Assembly: GCA_012513855.1 (NCBI GenBank)
Contig: JAAZBK010000113.1
Coordinates: 1-33,103 of the forward strand
Origin: Acidimicrobiales bacterium
GTDB lineage: Bacteria; Actinomycetota; Acidimicrobiia; Acidimicrobiales; Iamiaceae
Direction: 5' to 3'
DNA: 33,103 bases
The position numbers and the translations under genes were made by a program. Shown here piece after piece: positions 3,424-24,684 of the stretch. The notes beneath the pieces were generated by a model that had not been told where the DNA came from, did no database searches, and saw only the letters and a list, made by a program, of their open reading frames with translations. Within the stretch, counting starts at the first letter, position 1, and each line of letters begins with the position of its first letter.

Positions 3424-3428
3424 CCGGA

Positions 3429-3446
3429 GCCGGTGAGCAAACCGGC
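3429..3446. terminator. Short hairpin between convergent genes
   Basis: GCCGGT (3429-3434), loop GAGCAA and ACCGGC (3441-3446) form a 6-bp stem in the 32-bp gap between the convergent dehydrogenase and MOSC genes. There is no T-tract on either strand, so this is at best a weak bidirectional terminator. Confidence 0.3.
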
Positions 3447-3455
3447 CAACCGACC

Positions 3456-4238: not shown

Positions 4239-4250
4239 GTCGTCAGCCTT

Positions 4251-5174
4251 TCAGAGCCGTCGGAGGCGCACCGACTGGACCCTGTGGTCGGGGCCCTTGT
4301 GGAGCACCACGTCGGCGCGATCGCGAGTGGGGGCGATGTTGGCCACCAGGTTCGCCTCGTTGATGTCGCGCCAGATCTCGAGCGCGGTGGCCTCGGCCTC
4401 CTCGTCGGTGAGGCTGGCGTAGCGGGAGAAGTAGGAGCCGGGCCGGCGGAACATGGTCTCGCGGAGCTTGTTGAACCGCTGGACGTACCACTTGCGCACG
4501 TCGGCCACCTCGGCGTCGACGTAGATCGAGATGTCGAAGTAGTCGGACACGAACGTCGTGGTGGTGCCGTTCACCTGGAGGACGTTCAGGCCCTCGACGA
4601 TGAGGATGTCGGGCCGCTCCACCACCACGTCGTGCTCGGAGGGGAGCACGTCGTAGGTGAGGTGGTCGTAGGTGGGGGCACGGACAATCTCGGCCCCGGA
4701 CTTGGCGTCGTTGAGGAACTTCAGCAGCCGGCGGACGTCGTAGCTCTCGGGGAACCCCTTGCGGTCCATGAGATTGCGGGCTTCCAGCTCCGCGTTGGGA
4801 AACAGGAAGCCGTCGGTAGTGACCAGCGAGACCCGGGGGTGGTCCGGCCAGCGGGCCAGCAGGGCCTGGAGCACACGAGACGTGGTGCTCTTGCCCACGG
4901 CCACGCTGCCCGCGACGCCGATGACGTAGGGAACCGGAGGCAGGTCTCGGGCCAGGAACACCTCGGTGGCGCGGTGGCGGGCCTGGACGGCGGCCACGTG
5001 AAGGTTCACCAGTCGGGTGAGGGGCAGGTAGACGGATTCGACCTCGTCGAGGTCGAGGCGGTCGTTGAGTCCGCGCAGCTCGTCGAGGTCGGCGGTGCTG
5101 AGCGTGAGCGGGGTGGCGGCGCGGCGCGAACGCCACTCCTCTCGCGAAAAGGTCTCGAACGGGGCCGTGTTCAC
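4251..5174 (-). CDS. coaA: Type I pantothenate kinase
   Basis: Phosphorylates pantothenate with ATP, the first committed and usually CoA-inhibited step of coenzyme A synthesis. The protein has 307 residues, close to the type I family's usual 310-320. The P-loop is [12 protein letters not shown] at residues 86-97. It is followed by [19 protein letters not shown] and the [11 protein letters not shown] and [12 protein letters not shown] segments characteristic of prokaryotic CoaA. The GTG start at 5174 gives [14 protein letters not shown], a standard CoaA opening. A TAGCCT -10 lies 9 bases upstream, so the mRNA leader is at most a few bases. The gene is divergent from sufD with back-to-back promoters and is followed by the MOSC gene. 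Identity is secure. Confidence 0.95.
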
Positions 5175-5183
5175 CGGTCGCCG

Positions 5184-5213
5184 AGGCTACGGAGGCAGCG
5201 CCCCCTCCTCCAA
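5184..5213 (-). promoter_or_regulatory. Putative coaA promoter
   Basis: On the reverse strand TTGGAG (5213-5208), an 18-bp spacer and TAGCCT (5189-5184) resemble a sigma-70-type promoter. Transcription would begin near 5177, giving an almost leaderless coaA mRNA starting at GTG 5174. The -35 box is only 7 bp from the -35 box of the divergent sufD promoter. Confidence 0.45.
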
Positions 5214-5220
5214 GGCGGCC

Positions 5221-5249
5221 TTGGGGAGTCCTTCGACCCCCGGTAGGCT
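5221..5249 (+). promoter_or_regulatory. Putative promoter of the sufD-Rieske-sufC operon
   Basis: TTGGGG (5221-5226), a 17-bp spacer and TAGGCT (5244-5249) fit a -35/-10 pair. Transcription is expected near 5256-5258, which puts the hairpin at 5257-5286 at the very 5' end of the mRNA. This gives sufD its own promoter, separate from sufB. Confidence 0.5.
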
Positions 5250-5256
5250 CGGCCCC

Positions 5257-5286
5257 TGATCCGGGGCACTTCGTCGCCCCGGATCA
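5257..5286 (+). promoter_or_regulatory. 11-bp perfect inverted repeat (5' hairpin) in the sufD leader
   Basis: TGATCCGGGGC (5257-5267) and GCCCCGGATCA (5276-5286) pair perfectly across an 8-base loop. The stem lies between the predicted transcription start and the sufD start region, with GAGAGG (5292-5297) just after it. No gene on this strand ends nearby, so it is not a terminator of an upstream gene. It could be a mRNA-stabilising or regulatory 5' hairpin, or a DNA operator. Confidence 0.6.
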
Positions 5287-5306
5287 CGTTTGAGAGGCCG
5301 ATCTTC

Positions 5307-6593
5307 CTGAACTCGTTCACCCCCACCGTCGCTGCCGGGACAACCGGTCCGGCCTGGCTCGACGCTCGTCGTTCGGCTGCCGCCGAGGTCTTCGCTGCAT
5401 CCAGCCTCCCGAGTCCCGAGGAGGAGGTGTGGCGCTACAGCCGCATCGCCGACCTCGACCTGGAACGGTTCCAGCCAGCGGGCCCTGAGGCGTCTGACGT
5501 CGCTGCCGATCCAGGGGTCGCGGCGGTGGCCCAAGAGATCGACGCCGTCGTGGTCACGATGGTCGACGGGTCGCCGTCGATCCCAGCGCTGCCCCAGGAG
5601 TGGGTGGCTCGGGGCGTGGTGCTGGCCCAGGCCGCCGACCTCGCCGAGGAAGCGGCCGGACTGGGTTCTGTGGCGGTCGACGCCCCCGACGTGTTCGCCA
5701 CCATGAACGACGCCTTCACCGCGGCGCCGGTGGTGGTGAGCGTGCCGAGGGGGGTCACCTTGGATCGACCGATCCTGGTGCACCACCGGCTCGTCACCCC
5801 CGGAGTGGCCGTGTTCCCCCGACTGGTCGTCCAGTTGGGCGAAGGTGCTCAGGCCACGGTGATCGACCACGTCTCGTCGTCGTCGGCGGCGGGCGCTGTT
5901 CTGAGCGTTCCGCTCACCGAGCTGTCGGTGGAGCGTGGCGCCCGCCTCGGGTACCTGAGCTTCCAGGACCTGGCCGCCGATGCCTGGCAGGTCGGGTCGC
6001 TCGTGGCCCGGATCAGCCAGGAGGCGAACCTCAGCGCCGGACTCATAGGGCTGGGCGGCGAGTACGCGCGCATGCGGACCGACTGCGCCATGGCCGGCCG
6101 TGGCGCCAACGGCGACCTGTACGCCGGCTACTTCGGCGAGGGCGACCAGACGCTCGACTTCCGCACCTTCCAGCACCACGACGCCCCCGATACCACCTCG
6201 AACCTGCTGTTCAAGGGGGCGGTGGGTGGTAGGAGCCGATCGGTGTACACCGGCCTGATCCGGGTCGACAAGGCCGCTCGCGGCACCAACGCCTTCCAGA
6301 CCAACCGCAACGTGAAGCTCTCCGACACCGCGTGGGCCGAGTCGGTTCCCAACCTCGAGATCGAGACGAACGACGTGCGCTGCAGCCACGCGTCCACCGT
6401 CGGTCCGGTCGACCCCGAGCAGCGCTTCTACCTGGAGAGCCGGGGCGTCCCGCCCACGGTGGCGGATCGGTTGATCGTGGCCGGCTTCTTCGACGAGGTG
6501 GTCCGCCAGATGCCCGGAGGACAGCCGGTGGTCGACGCCATCGGCGTCCGCATCTCCGAGAAGCTCGACCGCGTCGAGGGAGACCTGCGATGA
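5307..6593 (+). CDS. sufD: Fe-S cluster assembly protein SufD
   Basis: SufD pairs with SufB and SufC in the SufBC2D scaffold. Homology to SufD N-termini begins well before the first conventional start (GTG 5427): the upstream in-frame residues GPAWLDARRSAAAEVFA and LPSPEEEVWRYSRI are standard SufD sequence. No in-frame ATG, GTG or TTG exists between the upstream stop (5244) and 5427. I therefore place the start at CTG 5307, preceded by GAGAGG with 9 bases spacing, giving 428 residues; ATC 5301 is a less likely alternative. The C-terminus carries RCSHASTVGPVDPEQRFYLESRGV, including the conserved SufD histidine. The TGA overlaps the ATG of the Rieske gene (ATGA), so the genes are translationally coupled. 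Function is secure; the exact start is inferred. Confidence 0.9.
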   Translation: MNSFTPTVAAGTTGPAWLDARRSAAAEVFAASSLPSPEEEVWRYSRIADLDLERFQPAGPEASDVAADPGVAAVAQEIDAVVVTMVDGSPSIPALPQEWVARGVVLAQAADLAEEAAGLGSVAVDAPDVFATMNDAFTAAPVVVSVPRGVTLDRPILVHHRLVTPGVAVFPRLVVQLGEGAQATVIDHVSSSSAAGAVLSVPLTELSVERGARLGYLSFQDLAADAWQVGSLVARISQEANLSAGLIGLGGEYARMRTDCAMAGRGANGDLYAGYFGEGDQTLDFRTFQHHDAPDTTSNLLFKGAVGGRSRSVYTGLIRVDKAARGTNAFQTNRNVKLSDTAWAESVPNLEIETNDVRCSHASTVGPVDPEQRFYLESRGVPPTVADRLIVAGFFDEVVRQMPGGQPVVDAIGVRISEKLDRVEGDLR

Positions 6594-6943
6594 GCACCGG
6601 GGTCGAGACGATCGACGTCTGCGCGTTCGACGAACTGGGTTCGGGGGAGGCCAGGCGGGTCGACGTCGCCGGTCATCGCCTGGCCGTGGTGCGCGTCGAC
6701 GACGACGTGTACGTGATCGGAGACCGGTGCACCCACGCCGAGGCCTCCTTGGCCGAGGGCGAGGTCGACACCGAGACGCTCCACATCGAGTGCTGGCGGC
6801 ACGGCAGTTCGTTCTCGTTGGTCACCGGTGAGCCCGACGTCCCGCCGGCCACCAAGGCCACCCCGGTGTACGACGCCCGGGTCGAGGAGGGCCGCGTGGT
6901 GGTGGCCGTGTCCGTGGCAGCAGAGGAGGCGCACCGTGGCTGA
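6590..6943 (+). CDS. Rieske [2Fe-2S] ferredoxin-like protein of the SUF operon
   Basis: A 117-residue single-domain Rieske protein. The cluster ligands are C47 and H49 (RCTHAEASL) and C68 and H71 (CWRHGSSF), the CxH...CxxH pattern of Rieske ferredoxins and dioxygenase-type Rieske components. The ATG at 6590 overlaps the sufD stop by four bases, and the gene's end overlaps the start of sufC by eight, so it is locked between two SUF genes. Rieske proteins at this position recur in actinobacterial suf operons. A role in delivering electrons to cluster assembly is inferred, not shown. It has no signal peptide and no membrane helix, so it is cytoplasmic. Confidence 0.9.
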   Translation: MSTGVETIDVCAFDELGSGEARRVDVAGHRLAVVRVDDDVYVIGDRCTHAEASLAEGEVDTETLHIECWRHGSSFSLVTGEPDVPPATKATPVYDARVEEGRVVVAVSVAAEEAHRG

Positions 6944-7733
6944 GCTGATCATCGAAGGACTCCGAGCAGGCGTCGACGGCAAGGAGATCCTCAAGGGGAT
7001 CGACCTCACCATCCGCAGCGGCGAGGTGCACGCCGTGATGGGGCCCAACGGCTCCGGCAAGAGCACGCTCTCCCACGTCATCATGGGTCGGCCCGGCTAC
7101 GAGATCCTCGGCGGTTCGATCACCCTCGACGGGGCCGACGTGCTGGCCATGGAGACCTGGGAGCGAGCCCAGGCCGGGCTGTTCCTGGCGCTCCAGTACC
7201 CCACCGAGGTGCCCGGCGTCTCCGTGCACGACGTCGTCACCGCCGCCCTCACGGCCGGGGGGCGCGATGCCAGCACCGTCACCGCTCTGCTGGAGCGCGA
7301 AGCCGCTCGCATCAACTTCGACCCACGGTTCCTGGTGCGAGACATCAACGTCGATCTCTCCGGGGGCGAGAAGAAGCGCAACGAGACCATGCAACTCGGT
7401 GCGCTCGAGCCCAGGATCGCCATCCTCGACGAGCTCGACTCGGGGCTCGACGTCGACGCCCTGCGCGACTGCGCTCGTCGGGTCGAGGCGGCCACCAACG
7501 AGGCCGGCCTCGGCGTTCTGGCCATCACGCACTACACCCGCCTGCTCCAGGAGCTGAAGCCCGACGTCGTGCACATCCTCGCCCAGGGCGAGGTGAAGGC
7601 CACCGGCGGGCCCGAACTGGCCGACGAGCTGGAAGCTCACGGCTATGCCGGCTACGTCGAGGTCGAGGAGCAGGCACCCCCGGCTCCCGATCCCTTCGCC
7701 GACCCCTTCGGGCCCGGGCCGTTCGCGGTCTGA
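6936..7733 (+). CDS. sufC: SufC ATPase, first copy (with sufD)
   Basis: ABC-type ATPase that drives SufB-SufD rearrangement during cluster assembly; it is not a transporter. It has 265 residues from GTG 6936, chosen because AGAGGAGG ends 6 bases upstream and the protein then opens MAELIIEGLRAGVDG. The Walker A is GPNGSGKST at residues 36-44, the signature LSGGEKKRNE, and the H-loop AITHY. The Walker B region reads AILDELDSGLD, where SufC normally has DETDSGLD, so a Thr is replaced by Leu just after the catalytic Glu. The C-terminus continues past the usual end with a Pro-rich tail (EEQAPPAPDPFADPFGPGPF). A second, more canonical SufC is encoded at 24681-25442. The start overlaps the Rieske gene by 8 bp. 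Confidence 0.93.
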   Translation: MAELIIEGLRAGVDGKEILKGIDLTIRSGEVHAVMGPNGSGKSTLSHVIMGRPGYEILGGSITLDGADVLAMETWERAQAGLFLALQYPTEVPGVSVHDVVTAALTAGGRDASTVTALLEREAARINFDPRFLVRDINVDLSGGEKKRNETMQLGALEPRIAILDELDSGLDVDALRDCARRVEAATNEAGLGVLAITHYTRLLQELKPDVVHILAQGEVKATGGPELADELEAHGYAGYVEVEEQAPPAPDPFADPFGPGPFAV

Positions 7734-9820: not shown

Positions 9821-9905
9821 TGTTCTGTGTTCGTGACGGCGTGAACAGCAAACGTTGGGATCGATGGCGAGATGAGGTACCCTTTGTTCTGTGTTCGTGA
9901 CGGCG
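9821..9905 (+). repeat. Two perfect 21-bp direct repeats flanking the AbiE-like promoter
   Basis: Bases 9821-9841 and 9885-9905 are identical over 21 positions (both contain GTGTTCGTGACGGCG), with a 64-bp period, close to six helical turns. The first copy lies upstream of the -35 box. The second begins just after the -10 box and covers the GTG start codon. This is the arrangement expected of operators bound by the antitoxin itself. Confidence 0.8.
9855..9883 (+). promoter_or_regulatory. Putative promoter of the AbiE-like operon (leaderless)
   Basis: TTGGGA (9855-9860), a 17-bp spacer and TACCCT (9878-9883) form a good -35/-10 pair. Transcription would begin at about 9890-9891, which is the GTG start codon itself, and no Shine-Dalgarno sequence precedes it. 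A leaderless mRNA is inferred. Confidence 0.55.
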
Positions 9906-10898
9906 CAAACGGATGAATATGTAGATCTGGCGCGCGAGGTGGCCGATGCGTTGCGCCACCTGGGCCTCGACGTCCGGGAGGTGCACGGCATCCTCACGAT
10001 CGACGGCACCCGCCAGGCGCTCAACCTCGTCTCGCGTGCCCACCCCACTCCGGCCGACGTCGCCCGCCTGGTCGACGAAGCGCCCGCCCGGTTCCCCGCG
10101 ATGGTCGTGGCCGACCGGATCAGCGAACCAGGACGCGATGCGCTGCGACGAGCGGGCTGGGGCTGGCTGGATCGTCGAGGCCACGTACGGATGTGGACGG
10201 TCGGGGTCCGGGTCGAGTCACCCGTGGACCTCGGCACCGGAGCGAAGACGGGCCGCTCCGCCGACGGCGACTCAGGTCCGTCCGGGAACCCGTGGACCAC
10301 CGTCGGCCTCGAGGTGGCGCTGGCCGCGCTGGTCGACCCCGATGCGCCGGTGGCGGCGCGGGCGGTCTCGCAGCGGATAGGTCGTAGCGCGGGCGCGGTC
10401 CACCAGATGGTCACCCGCTTCACAGAGGTCGGCCTCATCGGCCCCACCACCCGGCTCGCCCTCCTACCCGAGCTGTTCTGGGAGACGGCCGCCCACTGGC
10501 CCGACGACGGGTGGATCGCCCTGCCCATATCCATCGACGAGGTGGCCGAACGGATCGGTGGCGACGCCATGACCCGGGCCGACGAGCGCGCGGCCACCCT
10601 CGCCGGTGCCCGGATCCCGGCCGTCGGCGACCTGCCCGCGCGTTGCTACGTCAGGGCCGAGGGGGCCATCCGCCGGCTCAGGAACCTGTCGGACCGCACC
10701 CGTCCGACCCGCACCTGGATCAGGCGGGCACCGGTCACCTGGCTGCCCGACAACGACGATCACCCACCGTCCGATGCCCATCCCTGGCGCGTCGCCCACC
10801 CGATCGTGTGCGCGCTCCGGCTGGCAGCCGATCCCGCGCGCGGTCGCGAGATCGTCGAGCAGTGGGGCATCGTGCCCGCGGGGGAGGGGGCATCGTGA
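9891..10898 (+). CDS. AbiEi-like antitoxin / winged-helix regulator of a type IV toxin-antitoxin pair
   Basis: A 335-residue protein. The central motif, MVVADRISEPGRDALRRAGWGWLDRRGHVRMW (about residues 68-100, quoted here in part: VVADRIS, GWLDRRGHVRM), matches the 'becomes L..aGi.ylD..GN.rl' block seen in AbiEi-family antitoxins. Residues about 135-185 (SQRIGRSAGAVHQMVTRFTEVGLIG) look like a helix-turn-helix of winged-helix type. AbiEi proteins neutralise the AbiEii nucleotidyltransferase without forming a stable complex and repress their own promoter. The stop overlaps the toxin start (GTGA at 10895-10898). GTG 9891 is chosen because it sits at the predicted transcription start; GTG 9897 is possible. 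It is longer than the minimal AbiEi proteins. Family assignment is by motif and context, not by alignment. Confidence 0.7.
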   Translation: MFVTAQTDEYVDLAREVADALRHLGLDVREVHGILTIDGTRQALNLVSRAHPTPADVARLVDEAPARFPAMVVADRISEPGRDALRRAGWGWLDRRGHVRMWTVGVRVESPVDLGTGAKTGRSADGDSGPSGNPWTTVGLEVALAALVDPDAPVAARAVSQRIGRSAGAVHQMVTRFTEVGLIGPTTRLALLPELFWETAAHWPDDGWIALPISIDEVAERIGGDAMTRADERAATLAGARIPAVGDLPARCYVRAEGAIRRLRNLSDRTRPTRTWIRRAPVTWLPDNDDHPPSDAHPWRVAHPIVCALRLAADPARGREIVEQWGIVPAGEGAS

Positions 10899-11653
10899 CC
10901 GTGATCCTGTCGGGCCGGCGCAACGGCAGCACCCACCGCGAGATCGAGCTGCTGGCGTCGCTGCCGTCCGAGCTCCGCTTGATCGGTGGCCTGGCCGTGA
11001 TGGTGCGGGTCGGGACCCCGCACCGCGCCACCGTCGACCTCGACGCCCTGGCTCGGGACCCAGGCGTGCACGAGCAGCTCGCACGCCTAGCCCTCACGGC
11101 CGACGGCGGCGGGCAGTACACGTTCCGGGGCGACATGGACCTCGACGTCATCGACGTGGCCGGCGTCCGCGTGGATCAGCTGCTCCTCGACATCGCGGCC
11201 GCCGATCCCGGAGCAGAGCTCACCGACCTGGAGCTGAACGTGGTGGCCCACACCTGGGCGCACGACACCGCCACCGAGCTCGACCTGGCCGCGGCCGACG
11301 ACGAGAGCGGCGACATCCTGGCTAGAGCCGACCGGCGACTGGTGGCCAGCACCGCGGGTCTGGTGGCGATGAAGGCCACCACCGTGGCTCTGAGGGCATC
11401 GTCGAAACCGGAGAAGCGGGCTTCGGATCTCTACGACCTCGGACGTCTCCTGATCGACGGTGGGCTCTCCCGCGGCGAGCTCCTGACGCTGCCCAACCCG
11501 CTGTCGGAGGCGGTTCGGGAGCGCCTGGAGGGCTGGTACGTCGACGACCGCGGCCGCGACCGCACCTTCCGCGAGGTCCGCCGCTTCGACGAACCCCGCC
11601 TCGACCTCGACGACGCCGCCGACGCAGTGGCCGACGCCTTCGACTCCGTGTGA
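10895..11653 (+). CDS. AbiEii-like nucleotidyltransferase toxin
   Basis: A 252-residue protein from GTG 10895 (GTG 10901 is possible). The N-terminal nucleotidyltransferase motif is IGGLAVMVRVGTPHRATVDLD: G31-G32, then R44, T46, D48 and D50, matching the GG...RxTxDxD signature of AbiEii/AbiGii toxins. A second block, KATTVALRASSKPEKRASDLYDLGRLL (in parts: KATTVALR, KRASDLYDLG), matches the downstream Lys/Asp motif of the same family. Characterised relatives such as AbiEii and MenA-type enzymes add nucleotides to RNA, blocking growth, and can act in phage defence by abortive infection. The 4-bp overlap with the AbiEi-like gene is typical of the operon. Both catalytic Asp residues are intact, so the toxin appears functional. 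Confidence 0.8.
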   Translation: MTVILSGRRNGSTHREIELLASLPSELRLIGGLAVMVRVGTPHRATVDLDALARDPGVHEQLARLALTADGGGQYTFRGDMDLDVIDVAGVRVDQLLLDIAAADPGAELTDLELNVVAHTWAHDTATELDLAAADDESGDILARADRRLVASTAGLVAMKATTVALRASSKPEKRASDLYDLGRLLIDGGLSRGELLTLPNPLSEAVRERLEGWYVDDRGRDRTFREVRRFDEPRLDLDDAADAVADAFDSV

Positions 11654-11803: not shown

Positions 11804-13924
11804 ATGGCCCGCACCGGATTCCAGGGGACCGACGCGGCGCAGGCCGTCCGTCCGTTCATCCCCGCGCTCCTGATCATCGGGGTCCAGTTGGTGGTCTTCC
11901 CTGCGGGCCTCGGGCCGTGGTCGCTGGGCGTGATCTCGGGGTTGCTCACCGCGCTCGTGGCCCTGGGCCTGGCGCTCGTCTACCGGGCGAACCGGATCCT
12001 CAACTTCGCCCAGGGCGACCTGGGCACGGTCCCCACCACCGTGGTGGTCGGGCTGGTCGCGGTGACCGGGCTCCCCTGGCTGGTGGGAGCAGCACTGGGC
12101 CTGGTGTTCGCCGTGGTCCTCGGGGCCGTCATCGAGTTCTTCATCATCCGGCGGTTCGCCCGAGCGCCCCGGCTGCTGCTGACCGTGGCCACCATCGGGC
12201 TGTCGCAGTTGCTGGTGGTGGCGGGAACGTTGCTGCCCCGCTGGTGGGGCAAGACGATCTTCGCTGCGGAACGGCTCCCGGATCCCTTCGAGGCGAGCAT
12301 CGAGATCGGCAACCAGACCCTCGGTGGGACCGAGGTGCTGGCGCTGGTGCTGGCGCCCGTCCTCATGGCCGGCCTGGCTCTGTTCCTGCGGGGAACCGAC
12401 GTGGGCGTGGCCGTGCGGGCCGCCGCCGAGCGATCCGACCGGGCCGCTCTGCTCGGCATCCCGGTGCGACGGCTCCAGACCCTGGTGTGGGTGGTGGCCA
12501 CCGTGCTCTCCTTCTGCGGGGTGTTCCTGCACGCCGGGATCTTCGGATTCGGCGGTGCGTCGACGCTCAGTCCGCAGGCGCTCGTCTTCGCCCTCGGGGC
12601 CCTCGTGATCGGTCGCATGGACCACCTGCCGGCGATCGCCGCGTCGGCCGTGGCGCTCCGGATCCTGGAGCAGGGCATCCTCGTGAACAACCCGAGCCAG
12701 CCCGGCCGCACCTACGTGGTCCTGGCCGCTCTCCTGCTGGTGGTGCTGGTGGTCCGCCGCTCCGGAACCCGGCGGATCGACACCGATGCGGTGTCGTCGT
12801 GGGCCGCCGCCGAGGAGGTGCGCCCCATCCCCCGCGAGCTGCGCTCACTGACGATCGTGCGCGTCCTCCGGATGGCGCTGCCCTTGCTGGCGTTGGCGGT
12901 GGCCGTCGCCCTGCCCGCGGTGCTCAGCGAGTCGCAGGAGTTCAAGGCGGCCACGGTGGCCGCCTTCGCCCTCATCACCTTGTCGGTGGTGGTGCTCACC
13001 GGCTGGGCCGGGCAGGTCTCGCTGGGGCAGATGTCGTTCGTGGGCACCGGTGCCGCGGTGGGGGCGGTGGCCACCCACACCTGGCACTTCGACATGAGCC
13101 TCGCCCTCCTGGTGGCCGGACTGGCCGGAGCGGTGGTGGCGGTGGTGGTCGGGCTTCCGGCGCTGCGCCAGCCCGGCCTCTACCTGGCGGTGACCACGCT
13201 GGCGTTCGCGCTGGCCAGTTCGAACTTCCTCCTGAACCGCGCCGAGCAGACCTGGATCCCCCGCGACGGTCTCGAACGGCCCGACCTCTTCAAGACCTAC
13301 GACCTGAGCAGCGAGGCCGCCATGTACTGGTTCGTTCTCGGTGTGGTGGTCCTCGGCTTCCTCGCCGTGGCCGGCATCCGCCGCAGCCGGACCGGGCGAA
13401 CGTTGCTGGCCGTGAGGGACAACGAGCGCGGAGCCGCGGCGTACGCGATCCCGGTGCTCCGGGCCAAGCTCACCGGGTTCGCTCTCTCCGGTTTCCTGGC
13501 CGCGGTGGCCGGGTGCCTGCTCGTGCACGTCAACGGCTCCTACACCGAGCAGCCGTTCGTGGTGGGAGAGAGCCTCGGCGTGTTCACCGCCGCGGTGGTG
13601 GGCGGGTTGGGCTCGTTGACCGGCGCCGTCCTGGGCGCTCTCTTCATCAACGGCGGGCGGTGGTTCCTGTCCGAACGCTGGGCGTTGCTGCCGTCGGCGG
13701 TGGGCGTGCTCGGGGTGCTGCTGGTGGCCCCGGGAGGTCTTGGCGACCTCCTCTTCCGGCTTCGCGACGCCGGTCTTCGCCGTCTGGCCCGCAAGCGGGG
13801 GATCGTGGTGGCCAGCCTCATGGCCGACGAAGGGGGCGACGACGCGCCCGCCGCCCTCAAGGTGGCGATGCCGTCCGCACCCGACGGCAAGGAGCTGGTG
13901 GGCGCCGGAGAGGGAACCCGATGA
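11804..13924 (+). CDS. Fused branched-chain amino acid-type ABC permease (LivH-LivM)
   Basis: A 706-residue protein joining the two membrane subunits of a HAAT-family importer, which are usually separate genes of about 300-350 residues each. The LivH half (about 15-325) shows LVYRANRILNFAQGDLGTV and the coupling-loop motif AAAERSDRAALLGIPVRR. The LivM half (about 350-660) shows LTGWAGQVSLGQMSFVGTGA, the loop LLAVRDNERGAAAYAIPV and FALSGFLAAVAG. A soluble linker of about 35 residues (RRIDTDAVSSWAAAEEVRP) joins them. The ATG at 11804 is preferred because it comes shortly before the first helix; AGGAG lies 13 bases upstream, a long spacing. An in-frame GTG at 11687 would add a basic, non-homologous stretch. 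The stop overlaps the ATG of the next gene (ATGA). The substrate is unknown; amino acids, amides or urea are all known for the family. Confidence 0.88.
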   Translation: MARTGFQGTDAAQAVRPFIPALLIIGVQLVVFPAGLGPWSLGVISGLLTALVALGLALVYRANRILNFAQGDLGTVPTTVVVGLVAVTGLPWLVGAALGLVFAVVLGAVIEFFIIRRFARAPRLLLTVATIGLSQLLVVAGTLLPRWWGKTIFAAERLPDPFEASIEIGNQTLGGTEVLALVLAPVLMAGLALFLRGTDVGVAVRAAAERSDRAALLGIPVRRLQTLVWVVATVLSFCGVFLHAGIFGFGGASTLSPQALVFALGALVIGRMDHLPAIAASAVALRILEQGILVNNPSQPGRTYVVLAALLLVVLVVRRSGTRRIDTDAVSSWAAAEEVRPIPRELRSLTIVRVLRMALPLLALAVAVALPAVLSESQEFKAATVAAFALITLSVVVLTGWAGQVSLGQMSFVGTGAAVGAVATHTWHFDMSLALLVAGLAGAVVAVVVGLPALRQPGLYLAVTTLAFALASSNFLLNRAEQTWIPRDGLERPDLFKTYDLSSEAAMYWFVLGVVVLGFLAVAGIRRSRTGRTLLAVRDNERGAAAYAIPVLRAKLTGFALSGFLAAVAGCLLVHVNGSYTEQPFVVGESLGVFTAAVVGGLGSLTGAVLGALFINGGRWFLSERWALLPSAVGVLGVLLVAPGGLGDLLFRLRDAGLRRLARKRGIVVASLMADEGGDDAPAALKVAMPSAPDGKELVGAGEGTR

Positions 13925-16900
13925 CCGACACCGTCGAGACCGTCTCCGACGACGAGGAGCTGCCGGGCGAGGCGATGCCGGGTGAGGCTGGCCCTCCGAA
14001 GCGGTTCGGCGGCCGGCTGCTGGACTCGTCGTGGCTGGGCGCGGCCGGCTGGTATCCGCTGGCCGTCCTGTTCGGCCTGAACATGGCCGACGAGCTCGAC
14101 CGCTCCGCCTTCGTGGTGCTGCTGCCCGACATCCGCGACCACTTCGGCCTCGACAACTCCGGGATCCTGTGGGTGGTGGCGCTGGCGGGGGCGGCGGCGC
14201 TCCTGCTCACCGTCCCCATCGCCCAGCTCGCCGATCGCTCCGACCGGGTGCGCATCGCTCTCGCCGGGGCGGCCATCTGGGCCGCCTTCTCCTTGGGCAC
14301 CGGCTTCGCCCTCACCATGTGGATGCTGGTGATCATGAGATCTGGCTCGGCCATCGGCCAGGCCGTGGTCTTCCCAACCCACAACAGCCTCATCGCCGAC
14401 TTCTACCCGATCGCCAGCCGGCCCAAGGTGTACTCCTGGCACCGCGCCGCCAACAGCATCGGCTCGATCCTCGGTCTCCTGATCGGTGCCGGCCTGGCTT
14501 CGGTGTTCGACTGGCGAGCGCCGTTCCTGGTCTTCGCCGTGCCGACGATCCTGCTGGTGATCGCCGGGCTCAGGCTCAGCGACCCGGGCCGGGGCCACTT
14601 CGAGAGGCAGGCATCGGACCTGGGCATCGACCCTGGGCTCGAGGAACCGCCGCCATCGTTCGCGGAGGCGATCAGGATGGTGTGGACCGTCCGCAGCCTG
14701 CGTCGGATCTTCACCGCACTGCCGTTCCTGGCCGCATCGATCGTCGGCTTCGCCTCGCTGGCCTCGCTCCAGTACGCCGAGACCTTCGACCTGGAGGAGC
14801 TGGGCCGGGCGTGGGCCAACGTCCCGGTGCAGTTGGTGGAGCTGGCCGGCGTGGTCCTAGGCGCCCGCCTGACGTCGAAGGCGTTCGCCAAGGGCGGACC
14901 CTCGGCCATCTTCAACGTCCTCGGTGTGGCCGCGGTGGTGGCGTCCGTCCTGGCCGTCGGGTTCGCCCTCGCCCCCAACGTCGGCACCGCCATCGCCCTC
15001 CACGGGCTGGTGGCGGGCACGTTGGTGATCGTCGGCCCCGGCGTCATGGCCTCGCTGTCGCTGGCCATCCCGCCCCGGGCCAGAGCCATCGGCTTCTCGG
15101 TCGGTGCGCTGTGGGTTCTGCCCGGGCTGCTGGTCATCCCGTTCGTGGGTTGGATCGGCGACGCCCACGGCTTCCGCTGGGGGCTGCTCGCCATGCCACC
15201 CGTGTTCCTGGTGGGCGGGTTCCTCATCGCGTCGGTGCGGTCGGTGATCGACGACGACATCGCCCAGGTCTGGACCGGCGCCGCCACCCGGGCCCAGATG
15301 ATCAAGGACCGGGCCGACGGCAAGCTCCCACTGCTGTCGGTTCGCAACCTCCAGGTCGCCTACGGCGACGTGCGGATCCTCTTCGGGGTCGACCTCGACG
15401 TCGAGGAGGGCCAGATCATCGCCCTGCTCGGCACCAACGGAGCCGGCAAGTCGACGCTGCTCAAGGCGATCTCCGGGGTGGCCCCGGCGCACCGGGGAGC
15501 GGTGGTGTTCGACGGGCGCGACATAACCCACGCCCCGCCCGACGAGATCGCCCCGCTCGGCGTCGCCCAGGTTCCCGGCGGCCAGGGCACCTTCCCCAGC
15601 CTCACGGTGGCGGAGAACCTGCGGGTCGCCGGGTGGCAGATCCGCGGCGACGAAGCCACCCGCGCCGCTCGGGTCGACGATGCGCTCGAGCTGTTCCCGG
15701 TGCTGCGCCAGCGGCTCGACGACCCGGCCGCCGACCTGTCGGGTGGTCAGCAACAGATGCTGGCGCTCGCCATGGCGTTCCTCACCAGGCCCAAGCTGTT
15801 GATGATCGACGAGCTGTCGCTCGGCCTGGCACCGGTGGTGGTCGAGCAGCTCCTCGACGTGGTGCGCTCTCTGCGCGATCAGGGCACCACGATCATCCTC
15901 GTGGAGCAGTCGGTGAACGTGGCGCTCACGGTGGCCGACACCGCCTACTTCATGGAGAAGGGCGAGATCCGGTTCCACGGTCCCACCGCCGAGCTGCTCG
16001 ATCGGCCCGACGTGCTGCGCTCGGTGTTCCTGGCAGGAGCCGGATCACGGTTGACGAGCAACGCCAGCGACGGGGATCGCGACACGGAGCCGACGCCGGT
16101 AGCCGAAGCACCGGTGGGCCGGCCGGCCTCGGCCGGCGACGCAGAACAGACCCCCGCTCTCCGGGTGAGCGACGTGGGCATCAGCTTCGGCGGGATCCGG
16201 GCGGTGAGCCAGGTCACCTTCGACGTCGATCCCGGTGAGGTGGTCGGCATCATCGGACCCAACGGGGCGGGCAAGACCACGCTGTTCGACCTGATCTCGG
16301 GCTTCCTGGCCTCCGACACCGGTGAGGTCCGCCTGGCCGGCGTCGACGTGTCGACCCTGCCGCCGCACCGGCGGGCAGGTCTGGGTCTCGGCCGCAGCTT
16401 CCAGGACTCCAAGCTGTTCCCGTCGCTCACCGTGGAGGAGACGCTCCTGGTGGCGCTCGAGCGGTGGCTCGACGTCCGCGACCCGATCAACGCGGCATTG
16501 CGCATGCCCGCCCACGTCGACAGCGAGACCGTCGCCCGTCACCGGGTCGACGAGCTGATCGACCTGCTGGGCCTGGAGGCGTTCCGCACCAAGTTCGTGG
16601 GTGAGCTGAGCACCGGATCGCGTCGGGTGGTCGACCTCGGCTGCGTGCTGGCCCACGAACCGTCGCTTGTGCTGCTCGACGAGCCGTCGTCGGGGATCGC
16701 CCAGCGTGAAGCCGAGGCGCTCGGGCCGCTCCTGCTGCGGATCCGCGATTCCCTGAACGCCAGCATCGTGGTCATCGAGCACGACATGTCGCTCATCTCG
16801 TCCATCTCGGACCGCCTCGTCGCCCTCGACCAGGGCCGCCTCGTCACCCAGGGAGAGCCGGCCGAGGTGCTGGCCCACCCCGAGGTGGTCGCCTCCTACC

Positions 16901-16959
16901 TCGGCGGAGACTCCGCCGTACTCAGCCGATCAGCAGCAACTCGACCGGAGCCCTCATGA
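13921..16959 (+). CDS. MFS carrier fused to two ABC ATPases (MFS-LivF-LivG)
   Basis: One uninterrupted 1012-residue frame holds three modules. Residues about 35-440 are a major facilitator with about 12 helices, including LNMADELDRSAFVVLLPDIR and the loop QLADRSDRVRIAL (motif A-like). Residues about 470-695 are a LivF-type ATPase: Walker A GTNGAGKST (504-512), signature LSGGQQQ (606-612), Walker B with D630-E631, and LVEQS in place of the H-loop, which is normal for LivF. A variable linker (about 700-743) follows. Residues about 745-985 are a LivG-type ATPase: Walker A GPNGAGKTT (779-787), a divergent signature LSTGS (896-900), Walker B D920-E921 and H-loop H954. Both ATPases look competent. 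The gene overlaps its neighbours by ATGA at both ends, so it supplies both ATPases of the HAAT importer. What the MFS part does is unknown. Confidence 0.92.
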   Translation: MTDTVETVSDDEELPGEAMPGEAGPPKRFGGRLLDSSWLGAAGWYPLAVLFGLNMADELDRSAFVVLLPDIRDHFGLDNSGILWVVALAGAAALLLTVPIAQLADRSDRVRIALAGAAIWAAFSLGTGFALTMWMLVIMRSGSAIGQAVVFPTHNSLIADFYPIASRPKVYSWHRAANSIGSILGLLIGAGLASVFDWRAPFLVFAVPTILLVIAGLRLSDPGRGHFERQASDLGIDPGLEEPPPSFAEAIRMVWTVRSLRRIFTALPFLAASIVGFASLASLQYAETFDLEELGRAWANVPVQLVELAGVVLGARLTSKAFAKGGPSAIFNVLGVAAVVASVLAVGFALAPNVGTAIALHGLVAGTLVIVGPGVMASLSLAIPPRARAIGFSVGALWVLPGLLVIPFVGWIGDAHGFRWGLLAMPPVFLVGGFLIASVRSVIDDDIAQVWTGAATRAQMIKDRADGKLPLLSVRNLQVAYGDVRILFGVDLDVEEGQIIALLGTNGAGKSTLLKAISGVAPAHRGAVVFDGRDITHAPPDEIAPLGVAQVPGGQGTFPSLTVAENLRVAGWQIRGDEATRAARVDDALELFPVLRQRLDDPAADLSGGQQQMLALAMAFLTRPKLLMIDELSLGLAPVVVEQLLDVVRSLRDQGTTIILVEQSVNVALTVADTAYFMEKGEIRFHGPTAELLDRPDVLRSVFLAGAGSRLTSNASDGDRDTEPTPVAEAPVGRPASAGDAEQTPALRVSDVGISFGGIRAVSQVTFDVDPGEVVGIIGPNGAGKTTLFDLISGFLASDTGEVRLAGVDVSTLPPHRRAGLGLGRSFQDSKLFPSLTVEETLLVALERWLDVRDPINAALRMPAHVDSETVARHRVDELIDLLGLEAFRTKFVGELSTGSRRVVDLGCVLAHEPSLVLLDEPSSGIAQREAEALGPLLLRIRDSLNASIVVIEHDMSLISSISDRLVALDQGRLVTQGEPAEVLAHPEVVASYLGGDSAVLSRSAATRPEPS

Positions 16960-18659
16960 CCCCCCGGACCTCCACGCCGGCACCCCGCGCCTCGGCCCTC
17001 GCCCGATTCGGGCCGGTCACCGCGGTGGTGGCCGCCATCGCCCTCGTGGCCGTGCTCGCGTCGACCGGACGGTCGCCCGACGAGGTGAGCGCCGGCGAGA
17101 CGTCGACCACGGATGTCGTCACCGAGGCATCCGACATGCCCATCTCCTACGCCGAAGCGGTGGAGGAGGGGACCGTCGACGACTACGACTGGGGAGACGA
17201 GTGCGATCCCGAGACCGGCCGGGTCACGGTGCCGTCGAACTACTCGCCCCCGTGCCTGGTCGCCAGGGAGGGTGCGCCGGGGCTCAACACCGCTCAGGGC
17301 GTCACCGAGACCTCGGTGAAGGTCGTCATCTACGGAACGCCCGACGATGACCTGGCCGCGGCTCTCGGGGGTCAGATGGACCCCCCGGAGGTGCGGGCGG
17401 CGACATCCGAGAGCCTGATCCGCATCTTCGAGGACCGCTACGAGATGTGGGGTCGCACCATCGAGATCGTGCACATGAAGGGCAGCGGGTCAGACGAGAC
17501 CTCGGCCCGCGCCGACGCCATCAAGGTGGCCGAGGAGATCGGGGCGTTCGCCTCTCTGGGTGGCCCGAGCCAGCAGGGTGCGTACGCGGAGGCGCTGGCC
17601 GACCGCGGCGTGGTGTGCGTGGGCTGCGGCCTGTCGGTGCCGAACTCGACGTTCCTCGAGAACGATCCCTACATGTGGGCCAACCTGCCCACTCCTGAGC
17701 AGTACCTGATGATCCTGGGCGACTACCTGATCGAGCGCCTCAACAAGAAGCCGGCCATCCACGCGGGCGACCCTGCCATGCACACGCGGACGCGGGTGTT
17801 CGGCCACGTGAACTTCGAGCAGGACCCGCCGGTGTTCAAGGGCGTGAGCGAGGAGGCCGACAGGCGGGGCAAGGAGCGGGGCTACGAACCTGCGGTCCGG
17901 CTCACCTACCAGTTGGTGATCCCGGAACTGGCCGAGAAGGCCCGGGTGATCATCGGCCAGCTCAAGGACGCCGGGGTCACCACCGTGGTGTTCCTGGGAG
18001 ACCCGGTCATGCCCATGTACCTCACCCAGGCGGCCACCGACCAGGGCTACTTCCCCGAGTGGATCATCACGGGCACGGTCCTCACCGACACCACCACCTT
18101 CGGTCGCCAGTACGACCAGCAGCAGTGGTCGCACGCGTTCGGCCTGTCGCCGCTGCCGCTGCGGACCGACCCGGCCCAGGGCGAGGCCCGTCGCCTGCAC
18201 CGCTGGTACTACGGCGAGGAACCGCCGTCGATCCGCAACGCTGCGGTCATCTACGAGCCCATCCGGGTGCTGATGCTGGGCCTCCACATGGCCGGACCCA
18301 ACCTCACCCCCGAGACGTTCCGCGACGGCCTGTTCGCCTACCCGCCGTCGGGCGACTCGCCCACCCAGCCGCAGATCTCCTTCGGCAACCACGGCTTCCA
18401 CGCCGACCCCGACCACCTGGCGGTCGACGACATGGTCGAGGTCTGGTGGGACGCCGAAGCCACCGGCAAGGACGAACAGGAGAAGGACGGCACCGGGATG
18501 ATGCGCTACGCCAAGGGCGGACAGCGCTACCTCCCCGGTGAGATGCCCAAGGAAGACGTCTACGCCTTCCAGGTGGAGGGATCGGTGATATCGGCCGACG
18601 ACATCCCCGCCGACGACCTCCCGCCCGACTATCCGTCCCCCGCCGAGACCGGTGGCTGA
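16956..18659 (+). CDS. HAAT-type periplasmic substrate-binding protein
   Basis: A 567-residue binding protein of the Leu/Ile/Val-binding (type I periplasmic fold) class, translationally coupled to the MFS-ATPase gene by an ATGA overlap. One hydrophobic segment near residues 22-45 (ARFGPVTAVVAAIALVAVLAS) is followed by an acidic linker and then the ligand-binding domain. That domain starts near TSVKVVIYGTPDDD and includes GAFASLGGPSQQGAYAEAL, FGHVNFEQ and VVFLGDPVMPMYLTQAATDQGYFPEW (in part: VFLGDPVMPMYLTQAA). No lipobox cysteine follows the hydrophobic segment, so the protein is either anchored by an uncleaved helix or released by signal peptidase I. It is longer than the typical 380-420 residues of LivJ-like proteins. 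The ligand cannot be told. Confidence 0.85.
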   Translation: MTPRTSTPAPRASALARFGPVTAVVAAIALVAVLASTGRSPDEVSAGETSTTDVVTEASDMPISYAEAVEEGTVDDYDWGDECDPETGRVTVPSNYSPPCLVAREGAPGLNTAQGVTETSVKVVIYGTPDDDLAAALGGQMDPPEVRAATSESLIRIFEDRYEMWGRTIEIVHMKGSGSDETSARADAIKVAEEIGAFASLGGPSQQGAYAEALADRGVVCVGCGLSVPNSTFLENDPYMWANLPTPEQYLMILGDYLIERLNKKPAIHAGDPAMHTRTRVFGHVNFEQDPPVFKGVSEEADRRGKERGYEPAVRLTYQLVIPELAEKARVIIGQLKDAGVTTVVFLGDPVMPMYLTQAATDQGYFPEWIITGTVLTDTTTFGRQYDQQQWSHAFGLSPLPLRTDPAQGEARRLHRWYYGEEPPSIRNAAVIYEPIRVLMLGLHMAGPNLTPETFRDGLFAYPPSGDSPTQPQISFGNHGFHADPDHLAVDDMVEVWWDAEATGKDEQEKDGTGMMRYAKGGQRYLPGEMPKEDVYAFQVEGSVISADDIPADDLPPDYPSPAETGG

Positions 18660-18676: not shown

Positions 18677-19033
18677 ATGGCTGATCTCACCGTGTTCCAC
18701 AACCCGAACTGCTCGACCTCTCGCTACGCCATGGACGAGGTGGCCTCGGCCGGAGCCGATGCTGAGGTGGTGCAGTACCTGAAGGCGCCGCTGGATCGCC
18801 AGGGCATCCTCGATCTGATCGCCAAGCTGGAGGACCCGCCGGCCGACCTGGTCCGCAAGGACGGGTTCTTCAAGGAGCAGGGGCTGGACGAGGCCGACTA
18901 CACCACGCCCGAGGCCGTGGCCGACCTGCTGGTCGAGCACCCCCGCCTCATGCAGCGCCCCGTGCTGGTGAAGGGCGACAAGGCCATCATCGGCCGCCCC
19001 AAGGACCGGGTGCCCGCTTTCATCGCAGGCTGA
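18677..19033 (+). CDS. arsC: Arsenate reductase, glutaredoxin-coupled ArsC type
   Basis: Reduces arsenate to arsenite using a thiol co-substrate. It has 118 residues. The catalytic cysteine is C12 in HNPNCSTSR, and the arsenic-binding arginines R60, R94 and R107 all fall at the same numbers as in E. coli ArsC. This argues for a true reductase rather than a Spx or YffB-like relative. No ars regulator or arsenite efflux pump is adjacent, so it acts alone here or with distant partners. A TAnnnT box 7 bases upstream suggests a leaderless mRNA. It converges on lon. Confidence 0.85.
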   Translation: MADLTVFHNPNCSTSRYAMDEVASAGADAEVVQYLKAPLDRQGILDLIAKLEDPPADLVRKDGFFKEQGLDEADYTTPEAVADLLVEHPRLMQRPVLVKGDKAIIGRPKDRVPAFIAG

Positions 19034-21916: not shown

Positions 21917-22921
21917 GTGGCCATCCGTCCCGCTCCGCTCGTGCCCGGGCCCAGACGTCCGCTGGTCGACGGCGGGGACCTGCCCGCCGGCGGGGTGCGG
22001 CGCACCACCACCATCGACACCCTCCGTCCGATCGATCCACCGGGTCCCGCGGTGCTCGCGCTCAGCGGGCGCGACGTGGCGCTCGACGCCGCCGGCACCG
22101 TGGTCCACGCAGGGACGGCCGACTTCTCGGCCGAGGTGGACACCACCGGCGTGGTCACCTCGATCGCCGGCGATCTGCCCGACCACCTGCTCCGGCCACT
22201 CGTCGGAGCCAGCGTTCGAGCCGGTTTCGGCGGGCTGGTGGCCAGGAGCATCCCAAACGAGATGGAGCACCGGACGCTGGCGGCGTCGCTGCTCGAAGAC
22301 CTCTCGGGCGGCTACTTCGTGTCGGGCACCGTGCTGTTGTGGGCGGGTGAGAACGCCATCGACGACGCCGGGCTCGAACTGGTCTCCGACATGCAGGGCG
22401 ATGTCTGCGCGGGCTGGCGGCGAGACGGCCAGCAGTTCACACACCTCGCCGAGAACCTGGAGATCGCCTCTCCCAGCGGCGCGCCGGCCCCCGACCTGGC
22501 AGCCACCGCCGGGTCCGTCGGCTGGCACGAGGTCGACTCCCTGGCTCCCCACACCCATCGGAGGGCGCGTCGGCTCGACCTGGTGCCGACCCACGACGGG
22601 CTTCGGCTCTCGGCCCACTTCCGCGACTCGGTGGCCGACGGCGATTCGGAACTGGTGCTGCACGAGTACCGGGTCGACGCGGGCGTCGACCCGGAGGGGA
22701 AGGTGACGGCCGTGACGGTGGCAGCGCTGGTCCTGCCGTGGGCGGAGTGCCCGGCGGCTGTCGCCAGCGCTCAGCGGGTGGTGGGCGAGCGCCTCGCCGA
22801 TCTACCCACGTTCATGCGGCGCGGGCTCGTGGGTGCGGAGACCTGTACGCACCTGAACACCACCCTCCGGGCGCTAGCCGATGCCATCGCCCTGGACGAG
22901 GTTCGTCAGGCGCTCTCCTGA
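21917..22921 (+). CDS. DUF2889 family protein
   Basis: A 334-residue soluble protein without signal peptide or membrane helix. The opening GGVRRTTTIDTLRP, the central GELVLHEYRV-like segment (SELVLHEYRVDAG) and the C-terminal WAECPAAVASAQRVVG...CTHLNTTLRALADA match the DUF2889 family. The end carries its conserved Cys-x-His motif and a second conserved Cys about 40 residues earlier. No biochemical function is established for the family as far as I know; the Cys/His pattern would allow metal or cluster binding, but this is a guess. The gene is convergent with sufU and their coding ends overlap by 16 bp. GTG 21917 fits a leaderless start after TAGGGT. Confidence 0.75.
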   Translation: MAIRPAPLVPGPRRPLVDGGDLPAGGVRRTTTIDTLRPIDPPGPAVLALSGRDVALDAAGTVVHAGTADFSAEVDTTGVVTSIAGDLPDHLLRPLVGASVRAGFGGLVARSIPNEMEHRTLAASLLEDLSGGYFVSGTVLLWAGENAIDDAGLELVSDMQGDVCAGWRRDGQQFTHLAENLEIASPSGAPAPDLAATAGSVGWHEVDSLAPHTHRRARRLDLVPTHDGLRLSAHFRDSVADGDSELVLHEYRVDAGVDPEGKVTAVTVAALVLPWAECPAAVASAQRVVGERLADLPTFMRRGLVGAETCTHLNTTLRALADAIALDEVRQALS

Positions 22922-23409
22922 GCCTCGCTGATGCCCTGGGCGAGGGTGTTCCAGGCCAGGGTGGCGCACTTGATGCGGACGGGGAACTTGACCACGCCGC
23001 GCAGCGCTTCCAGGTCGCCCAGCTTGACCTCCTCGAACGCGGCCAGGGCCGCTTCGTCGGGGATCTCCTCGCCGGACTCGCCCTCGGCGTCGAGGCTCGA
23101 CTCGTGCACCGACATCATGGCCTTGAACGCCTTGGTCAGATCCTCGACCTCGGCCACCGTCTTGCCCTTCACCGCGGCCGACATCATCGAGGCCGACGAC
23201 TGGCTGATGGAGCAGCCGGTTCCGCCGATGCGGATGTCGGTGACGGTGCCAGCGTCGTCGAGGTCCAGGAAGACCACGATCTCGTCGCCGCACAGGGGGT
23301 TGAAGCCTTCGGCCCGGTGGGCCGGGGGGACCTCCAGCTCGCCCCGGTTGCGGGGGTTGCGGTAGTGGTCGAGGATGATCTCCCGGTAGAGATCCTCGAG
23401 TCCTGGCAT
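22906..23409 (-). CDS. sufU: SufU-type sulfur-transfer protein
   Basis: Takes persulfide sulfur from the SufS active-site cysteine and passes it to the SufBCD scaffold; it is the Gram-positive counterpart of SufE. It has 167 residues. The zinc/thiol residues are C40 and D42 (NPLCGDE), C66 (GTGCSISQ) and C148 (RIKCATLAW). The opening LEDLYREIILDHYRNPRNRG is diagnostic. Between C66 and C148 is an acidic stretch (SSLDAEGESGEEIPDEAAL) that makes it about 20 residues longer than the Bacillus protein. It lies 39 bp downstream of sufS in the reverse-strand operon. Its 3' end overlaps the convergent DUF2889 gene. Confidence 0.94.
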   Translation of the reverse strand: MPGLEDLYREIILDHYRNPRNRGELEVPPAHRAEGFNPLCGDEIVVFLDLDDAGTVTDIRIGGTGCSISQSSASMMSAAVKGKTVAEVEDLTKAFKAMMSVHESSLDAEGESGEEIPDEAALAAFEEVKLGDLEALRGVVKFPVRIKCATLAWNTLAQGISEAQESA

Positions 23410-23448
23410 TGGTGGGCCTCGCAGTTGTGGGTCGAGACGGCGTGGCCG

Positions 23449-24680
23449 TCAGAACGAGAAGAAGCTTGCCGCGTCGGCCAGTGCCTCGGCCAACGCATCG
23501 ACGTCGTCGGTGTCGTTGTAGACGTAGAACGACGCCCGAGCGGTGGCACCGACGCCAAGCACCTTCATCAGGGGCTTGGCGCAGTGGTGCCCGGGACGGA
23601 CGCACACGGCGTGCTCGTCCATGACCTGGGAGAGGTCGTGGGGGTGGATGCCGTCGACCGCCATCGACAACACGCCGCCCCTGGCGGCCGGCTCGGCGGG
23701 ACCGTGGATGGTGAGCTTGTCGCCCAGGCGCTCGGTGAGCGTGCGCATGGCGTGGGCGGTGAGGGTGACCTCGTGCTCGCGGACGGCCTCCATGCCGAGG
23801 CCCTCGAGGTAGTCGATGGCCGCGTGGAGGCCGATGGTCTCGGCGATGGGCGGCGTGCCGGCCTCGAACTTGGCCGGCAGCTCGGCCGGGGTGAAGCCGT
23901 CGAGGCGGACGTCGAGGATCATGCCGCCGCCACCGAGGAACGGCGGCATGGCGTCGAGCAGCTCCTCGCGCCCCCACAGGACGCCGATGCCGGTGGGCCC
24001 GAGCATCTTGTGGCCCGAGAAGGCAGCGAAGTCGACGCCGAGGTTTGCGACGTCGGTGGGGAGGTGCGGAACGTACTGGCAGGCGTCGAGCACCACGATG
24101 GCGCCGGCGTCGTGTGCTGCCGCGGTGATCTCCCGCACCGGCGTGAGCGTGCCGGTGACGTTGGACATGGCGGTGAGCGCCACCACCTTCACGCCGTCGA
24201 GCAGGCGCGGCAGGTCGGTGAGGTCGAGCTGGGCGTCGGCGGTGAGCGGGATCCAACGGATCTCGAAGCCCTTCTCGGCCTGCAGCTGGAACCAGGGGAC
24301 GATGTTGGCGTGGTGCTCGAGCTGGGTGATGAGCACGGCGTCGCCCGGGCCCAGGTTGGCCGCGCCCCAGGAGCGAGCCACCAGGTTGAGCGACTCGGTG
24401 GCGTTCTTGGTGAAGATGACCTCGGTGGCCGGGCGAGGTGCTCCGATGAAGCGACCCACCCGGATCCGGGCGCCCTCCATGGCGTTGGTGGCGGCCTCGG
24501 CGATCTCGTAGACGCCACGGTGCACGTTGGCGTTGATGGTCTCGTAGTAGGTGCTCATCGCCTCGAGCACCGAGGTGGGCTTCTGCGAGGAGGCGGCGGA
24601 GTCGAGGAACACCAGCCGTCGGCCCTTGACCTCGCGTTCGAGGATCGGGAAGTCGGCGCGGACCTTCTGGGCGTCGAACG

Positions 24681-24684
<4 letters not shown>
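23449..24684 (-). CDS. sufS: Cysteine desulfurase SufS
   Basis: PLP-dependent enzyme that removes sulfur from cysteine as a persulfide for Fe-S assembly. It has 411 residues from ATG 24684, which overlaps the sufC2 stop (ATGA). The opening VRADFPIL and LVFLDSAASSQKP are standard. The PLP lysine is K226 in FSGHKMLGPTG, and the catalytic cysteine is C368 in RPGHHCAKPL, in the short-loop group II arrangement that needs SufU or SufE for full activity. A longer in-frame reading exists upstream but only covers sufC2 in another frame. SufU follows directly, giving a matched donor-acceptor pair. The ligand residues are all intact. Confidence 0.96.

Follow-up and report, generated by a model that had tools for sequence, protein, structure and literature searches.

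Membrane transport is divided into a primary (ATP-driven) and a secondary (gradient-driven) class, which are taken to have no parts in common. In the first of these, the HAAT importers (LivFGHM, and with them the urea importers UrtABCDE) bring together LivH, LivM, LivF, LivG and a type-I binding protein in one operon, as does the locus described here; however, their LivF carries no MFS, whereas in our locus LivF is joined to an MFS and to LivG, and LivH is joined to LivM. Its binding protein also departs from the HAAT counterparts in being long and without a solved relative by sequence. The double ATPases of the peptide importers (mycobacterial DppD, OppD) resemble our fusion in having two ATPase domains per chain, but no MFS is attached to them and they serve a different permease family. 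In the second class, the Spns carriers (Hyphomonas neptunium HnSpns, human Spns1 and Spns2) share with our MFS domain the Asp-Arg of TM1, the Arg of TM4 and the charge-relay Asp, and differ from it in their switch Glu129 (Gln147 here), in the absence of any fusion to an ABC ATPase, and in an identity of about 20%; the DgoT/TIGR00893/TIGR00895 symporters (anion:cation, aromatic acid:H+) are among its best NCBIfam matches, but they have an acidic TM4 residue which is absent here, and the domain scores far below their cut-offs. No prior description of an MFS-ABC fusion, or of an importer of this kind, was found in the open-access papers searched; the parts belong to known families, and their union in one chain is apparently undescribed.

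The fusion gene and its operon

The window, that is, the whole stretch of 33,103 nucleotides of DNA analysed, contains the following features of the transporter operon, with domains given by the residues of the fusion protein:

11804..13924, + strand: LivH-LivM fused permease of a HAAT-type ABC importer, 706 aa (two BPD_transp_2 stretches; order kept in relatives)
13921..16959, + strand: MFS-LivF-LivG fusion protein, 1012 aa (open frame, Pfam/NCBIfam, AlphaFold2 (AF2); conserved in dozens of genomes)
14041..15243, + strand: MFS carrier domain, residues 41-441, 12 transmembrane helices (Pfam, AF2, fold and sequence matches)
15247..15315, + strand: helical linker from TM12 to LivF, residues 443-465 (AF2, alignments)
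15331..16038, + strand: LivF-type ATPase domain, residues 471-706 (NCBIfam and motifs)
16039..16152, + strand: LivF-LivG linker, mostly unstructured, residues 707-744 (AF2, dN/dS)
16153..16929, + strand: LivG-type ATPase domain, residues 745-1003 (Pfam, NCBIfam, motifs)
16956..18659, + strand: substrate-binding protein of type-I periplasmic fold, 567 aa (Peripla_BP_6, AF2 pLDDT 81.8)

The fusion gene lies between the gene of the fused LivH-LivM permease, whose product contains two stretches of BPD_transp_2, the model of LivH/LivM-type permease halves (E 2e-48), and that of the type-I binding protein. A plausible ribosome site (GGAGAGG) precedes its ATG at 13921, which overlaps the LivHM stop (13922-13924) in a four-base ATGA, and its end overlaps the start of the binding-protein gene (16956) in the same manner, by four bases, ATGA. 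The initial annotation had proposed a single protein joining an MFS carrier to both ATPases of a HAAT importer, and had taken the four-base overlaps with the permease and binding-protein genes to mean that it is built into the importer operon; both proposals hold, as the frame is open across 1012 codons with Pfam and NCBIfam matches to its domains, and both overlaps are present. Of the two findings that it named as refuting, neither was encountered: there is no stop or frameshift in the frame, and the homologues of relatives are not always separate genes, since fused ones are found among them.

An artefact of assembly or annotation, or a stop codon lost locally, might be suspected because the source assembly of the window is a draft of 540 contigs. 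However, the same fusion is present at 43-80% identity in many independent assemblies, including finished isolate genomes; the assembly artefact was rejected on account of these independent fused homologues, and we regard this whole explanation as practically inconceivable.

Distribution and architectures

The initial annotation had left open how common the fusion is, and it proves to be widespread. Of 11 congeners, 10 carry it, with identities of 73-84% (in three of these it is truncated where the contig ends), and, within the order, it is present in 99 of the 397 genomes sampled, about a quarter, finished isolates included, and in 68 of 203 genera. These counts were taken at E <= 1e-200, a limit that exceeds any match to LivF-LivG only among the congeners (best 2e-195 to 2e-196), and the 99 include a few partial matches, mostly from contig ends. 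Dozens of full-length fusions in Acidimicrobiia came from a scan of one genome per species (GTDB); the finished isolate genomes of Aquihabitans sp. G128 and actinobacterium IMCC26256 carry it, and it also occurs in other classes of Actinomycetota. Outside Actinomycetota, none was present among the best 80 matches of the GTDB scan or among plasmids, where the sole fused match was that of Embleya. The genes of one record titled Thermoanaerobacterales (L083, PKRH01000008.1) and of another titled Bifidobacterium breve (L103, CAMBEL010000001.1) match those of Acidimicrobiia; both records are probably mislabelled bins, and L083 lies inside the Acidimicrobiia clade in the trees.

By means of domain profiles built for this analysis, the loci were sorted into five architectures:

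A (that of the window): LivHM, MFS-LivF-LivG, binding protein
B: MFS-LivF, LivHM-LivG, binding protein; its carriers include Haloechinothrix (L114) and a megaplasmid of Embleya (L216)
C: LivHM-LivF-LivG as a single chain, about 1200-1300 residues long and lacking the MFS; the genome of the window itself has one (L145)
D: LivHM, LivF-LivG, again lacking the MFS
E: separate genes

The single-chain importer cores of C (L145, at G000:C526:1-6805, with its frame at 3199-6804 on the minus strand; L184-L194; L200-L203) mostly adjoin a binding protein, and several of them look as though they were derived from the MFS fusion through loss of the MFS. A small lipoprotein-like protein, unmatched in Pfam, accompanies the MFS-LivF form and no other (L117:6591-7082 and six other B loci).

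The ATPase domains and the linkers

Pfam recognizes two ABC_tran domains in the fusion, and in NCBIfam the first ATPase is best matched by the UrtE/LivF type, with the UrtE model scoring above its cut-off, and the second by the LivG/UrtD type; the C-terminus of the latter has the BCA_ABC_TP_C tail, just below cut-off. The LivF domain has Walker A GTNGAGKST, signature LSGGQ, Walker B ..IDEL and a Q that replaces the switch His, and the LivG domain has Walker A GPNGAGKTT, signature LSTGS, Walker B LLDEP and its switch His. These nucleotide-binding motifs had been described as intact, and Walker A, Walker B and signatures are indeed present in both ATPases. The LSTGS singled out as a variant in LivG is there too, although it is no oddity: LSTGS or LSTGT is the rule across the lineage, whether the MFS is present or absent, and it is not, therefore, a defect. 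The idea of a degenerate site tied to the MFS was likewise rejected, since the MFS-free relatives have the same signature. As for LivF and LivG, which as a HAAT norm were expected to be separate proteins, they form one chain here, but their joining is also common in the lineage without the MFS, and is thus not peculiar to the MFS form; LivHM-LivF-LivG even occurs as a single chain.

AlphaFold2 was run on the fusion as a single chain, with 56 aligned relatives, and gave a model (mean pLDDT 87.5, pTM 0.76) in which a disordered stretch (1-31) is followed by a 12-helix MFS (pLDDT mostly 92-98, about 95), a continuous helix (443-465), LivF, a second disordered stretch (704-740, pLDDT <50) and LivG. 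The LivF-LivG pair of the model aligns best with the double ATPase chain of ATP-bound mycobacterial DppABCD, a resemblance by which the usual ATPase sandwich could form within one chain. The linker between LivF and LivG is poorly conserved and has a high dN/dS. The MFS is always N-terminal of LivF, and in the 140 fusion frames compared, 15-27 residues separate the two; 103 of these frames are of A and 37 of B, a few of those called B being really A genes cut by contig ends.

In this model a helix joins TM12 directly to LivF, which would be in keeping with an ATP-driven MFS transporter, that is, one powered or gated by the ATPases, with LivHM as its partner or as a second user of the motor. However, LivF and LivG match the permease that is usual for them, and their own operon encodes it in intact form; the ATPase motifs are identical in MFS-free importers, and MFS carriers are not known to have a docking surface for an ABC ATPase, all of which makes such a transporter highly unlikely. 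It is also rather doubtful, although the chance is not negligible, that the nucleotide state of LivF-LivG would pass through a rigid helical linker and switch or drive the MFS in step with the importer; were this true, the nucleotide-switched MFS would make of the whole a single machine, in which two transporters of one substrate are physically coupled.

The MFS domain and its relatives

The first reading of this DNA, as a full-length MFS domain of 12 helices, is borne out by the match to Pfam MFS_1 at residues 52-394 (E 6e-36; 124 bits against a cut-off of 33.4) and by the 12-helix fold of the AF2 model, whose top fold match is human Spns1 (Z 40.3 over 408 residues, 20% identity). Among solved relatives, the profiles give the bacterial Spns 6e8j as the best (E 8e-36) and DgoT as the second (E 2.5e-25). 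The conserved residues are D57, E58, D60 and R61 in TM1, R109 in motif A (D105/R106/R109), R140, H154, D160, R296, R388 and D446, the last three being invariant across A, B and the free forms. The best NCBIfam subfamilies are the galactonate and aromatic-acid symporters, at 61-74 bits against cut-offs of 395-419, the model of the DgoT-type anion:cation symporter (TIGR00893) remaining at 74 bits below its curated cut-off of 395.

In HnSpns, Asp41, Arg42, Arg122 and Asp142 act together with the proton switch Glu129 (PMC9440201). By alignment to 6e8j, the counterparts of the first four are D60, R61, R140 and D160, and that of Glu129 is Q147. An alignment with functional carriers had been suggested to see whether the transport residues are kept, and its outcome is divided: most window-type fusions retain the Spns Asp-Arg of TM1 and Arg of TM4, and the charge-relay Asp is kept without exception, but the glutamate switch of TM4 is absent in the window and replaced by R, K or Q in most of the 83 relatives compared, free ones included, with Glu at this position in 2 window-type relatives. 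Since Glu129 is replaced here, the MFS was not filed as Spns, and the proton-coupling scheme of Spns is not transferable to it; transport could have been lost or altered. The same change is also seen in free carriers, and is not a sign of decay after fusion.

Evolutionary history and selection

In the tree of the ATPases (concatenated LivF and LivG, 104 rows), B falls in one clade (99/94), together with one row with separate LivF, and A, C and D fall together in another (99/95). Rows of D or C are nested in A (L195 with L034, 100/95; L196 with L037, 100/99; L100 with L092, 98/89), and L145 and L101 are inside a 100/99 group of the window's relatives. The presence and absence of the MFS entail at least nine changes, even without the outgroup. 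Most of these are read as losses, because the fused MFS domains share one origin: in the MFS tree, to which nine free MFS of these genomes had been added, all the fused ones form one clade (97/93), with B (98/82) as sister to A plus derived free forms (99/95), in agreement with the ATPase tree. Eight of the nine added MFS lie outside the fused clade and the other, L222, nests in A as sister to L035 (100/97). Seven free carriers (the S clade, 100/100) are also inside A; they end just within the linker helix, their genomic neighbours are unrelated, and they have no ABC partner. An earlier MFS tree, with poor outgroups, had split B into two clades; two separate captures of the MFS were unsupported once the nine free MFS had joined the tree. 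The distances of the MFS and of the ATPases correlate with r 0.65 in A and 0.90 in B. The simplest reading of these trees is a single ancient MFS-LivF fusion, after which LivG came to be placed in two ways; the MFS was then lost several times, each loss leaving an importer that looks intact, and at least twice it was released as a carrier on its own. Both halves are separately dispensable, importers without the MFS and MFS carriers without ABC being found in the same lineage.

With respect to selection, simple Nei-Gojobori counts against seven congeners (419 aligned codons each), which are rough in GC-rich DNA, gave dN/dS of 0.14-0.42 for the MFS, 0.12-0.39 for LivG and 0.13-0.27 for LivF, and mostly far weaker constraint than that of the MFS for the N-terminal tail and the LivF-LivG linker; the MFS values are within the range of LivG and a little above those of LivF and, judged by these counts, purifying selection acts on the MFS as it does on the ATPases. 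Identity among the fusions is 0.47 for the MFS, against 0.46 and 0.50 for the permease halves, and its divergence would appear to follow the pace of substrate handling, as in those halves. A mere membrane anchor or scaffold, holding LivF and LivG at the permease, would profit from the fixed 1:1 geometry and the near-constant length of the linker, but it does not need 12 helices, which far exceed the requirements of anchoring, nor the conserved carrier-type charged residues and low dN/dS; moreover, the MFS also exists as a free carrier, and MFS-free LivFG recurs within the fused clade, adjoining or fused to the same permease. We thus hold the anchor to be very improbable.

The rate of the MFS covaries best with that of LivF (partial r 0.30, 14 of 999 permutations); with the binding protein, the partial r of 0.19 is not significant (66 of 999). 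By analogy with the regulatory domains of other ABC importers, the MFS may be a transceptor, a carrier fold that serves as a sensor, which reads the level of substrate or the energization of the membrane and modulates the hydrolysis of ATP by LivF. Besides this covariation, the short helical linker into LivF, of near-constant length, and the replacement of the Spns proton switch would speak for it; on the other hand, the free MFS forms without an ABC partner retain the same residues, and the MFS has been lost repeatedly with the ATPase motifs visibly unchanged. We consider the transceptor the main alternative to the reading preferred below, with a chance of about one in four.

Proposed function

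The initial annotation had offered three roles for the MFS, of which that of an anchor is weakened, and those of an alternative route and of a sensor both stand, with the route favoured. As each half is found without the other and the MFS is complete and selected, the driving of the MFS by ATP and its use as a pure anchor are both unlikely. The reading that we prefer, and to which we would give an even chance, is that of an ordinary ABC importer with an MFS carrier tethered 1:1 to LivF, so as to form two routes for the same substrate or for linked ones. Its elements are: (i) a complete LivFGHM (HAAT) importer, which would work as the normal ATP-driven route of high affinity; (ii) an MFS carrier permanently joined to the N-terminal end of LivF, so that each importer has one carrier; (iii) a presumed gradient-driven mode of transport in this carrier, which would not be powered by ATP and whose organic-anion substrate would be that of the importer or one linked to it in metabolism; (iv) a route of high capacity, or of exchange or efflux, which the MFS would give beside that of high affinity; (v) and finally, a short helical linker that would fix stoichiometry and position, and by which the state of LivF may influence the carrier. 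We infer that the MFS acts as a working secondary carrier.

Carrier and importer ATPases were already joined in a single polypeptide when A and B parted, and either half has been lost naturally in some lines. The fusion is of clear interest because it joins two classes of transporter and offers natural controls, and the comparisons available in nature (with the MFS, without it, and the MFS alone) are suited to tests of mutual regulation or supply. Automatic annotation may often name such fusions after just one half.

The binding protein, the substrate and the genomic surroundings

The binding protein has additional segments and an N-terminus like a membrane anchor. No solved relative was found for it by sequence, the general type-I fold alone being matched; its nearest folds are those of LivK/LivJ (leucine) and of aromatic-acid binders, with Z of about 19-21. 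The recurrent neighbours of the loci are AMP-ligase, hydrolase, luciferase-like monooxygenase, hexapeptide acyltransferase and P450, with no family in more than 12 of the 112 loci. Putatively, the importer would carry out the ATP-driven uptake of an amino acid, an amide or a related compound; operon logic and weak family hints suggest that it shares a substrate with the MFS, and this substrate is most likely an organic anion, to which the MFS subfamily matches, the binding-protein folds and the scattered catabolic neighbours faintly point. The gene of the hexapeptide acyltransferase type is close to the fusion in 12 A loci (L091:12850-13347 and 11 others), and a link between it and the substrate is possible.

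Directly after the binding protein, the window has a small gene of the ArsC family (18677-19030), and similar genes are found in four related loci. Just upstream of LivHM (9891-11650) is a unit of two genes that resembles an AbiE toxin-antitoxin pair, one encoding a 335-aa protein that Pfam does not match, the other a nucleotidyltransferase of the AbiEii type (E 3e-7). A SUF iron-sulfur cluster set (1-1377, 5427-6590, 6936-7730, 22909-24684) flanks the transporter operon together with Lon and the AbiEii-like gene, with two SufB/SufD-type genes and an ABC ATPase in the place of SufC on one side, and SufU-like and SufS-like genes on the other; the Lon/SufU/SufS side of the window is retained in several related loci.
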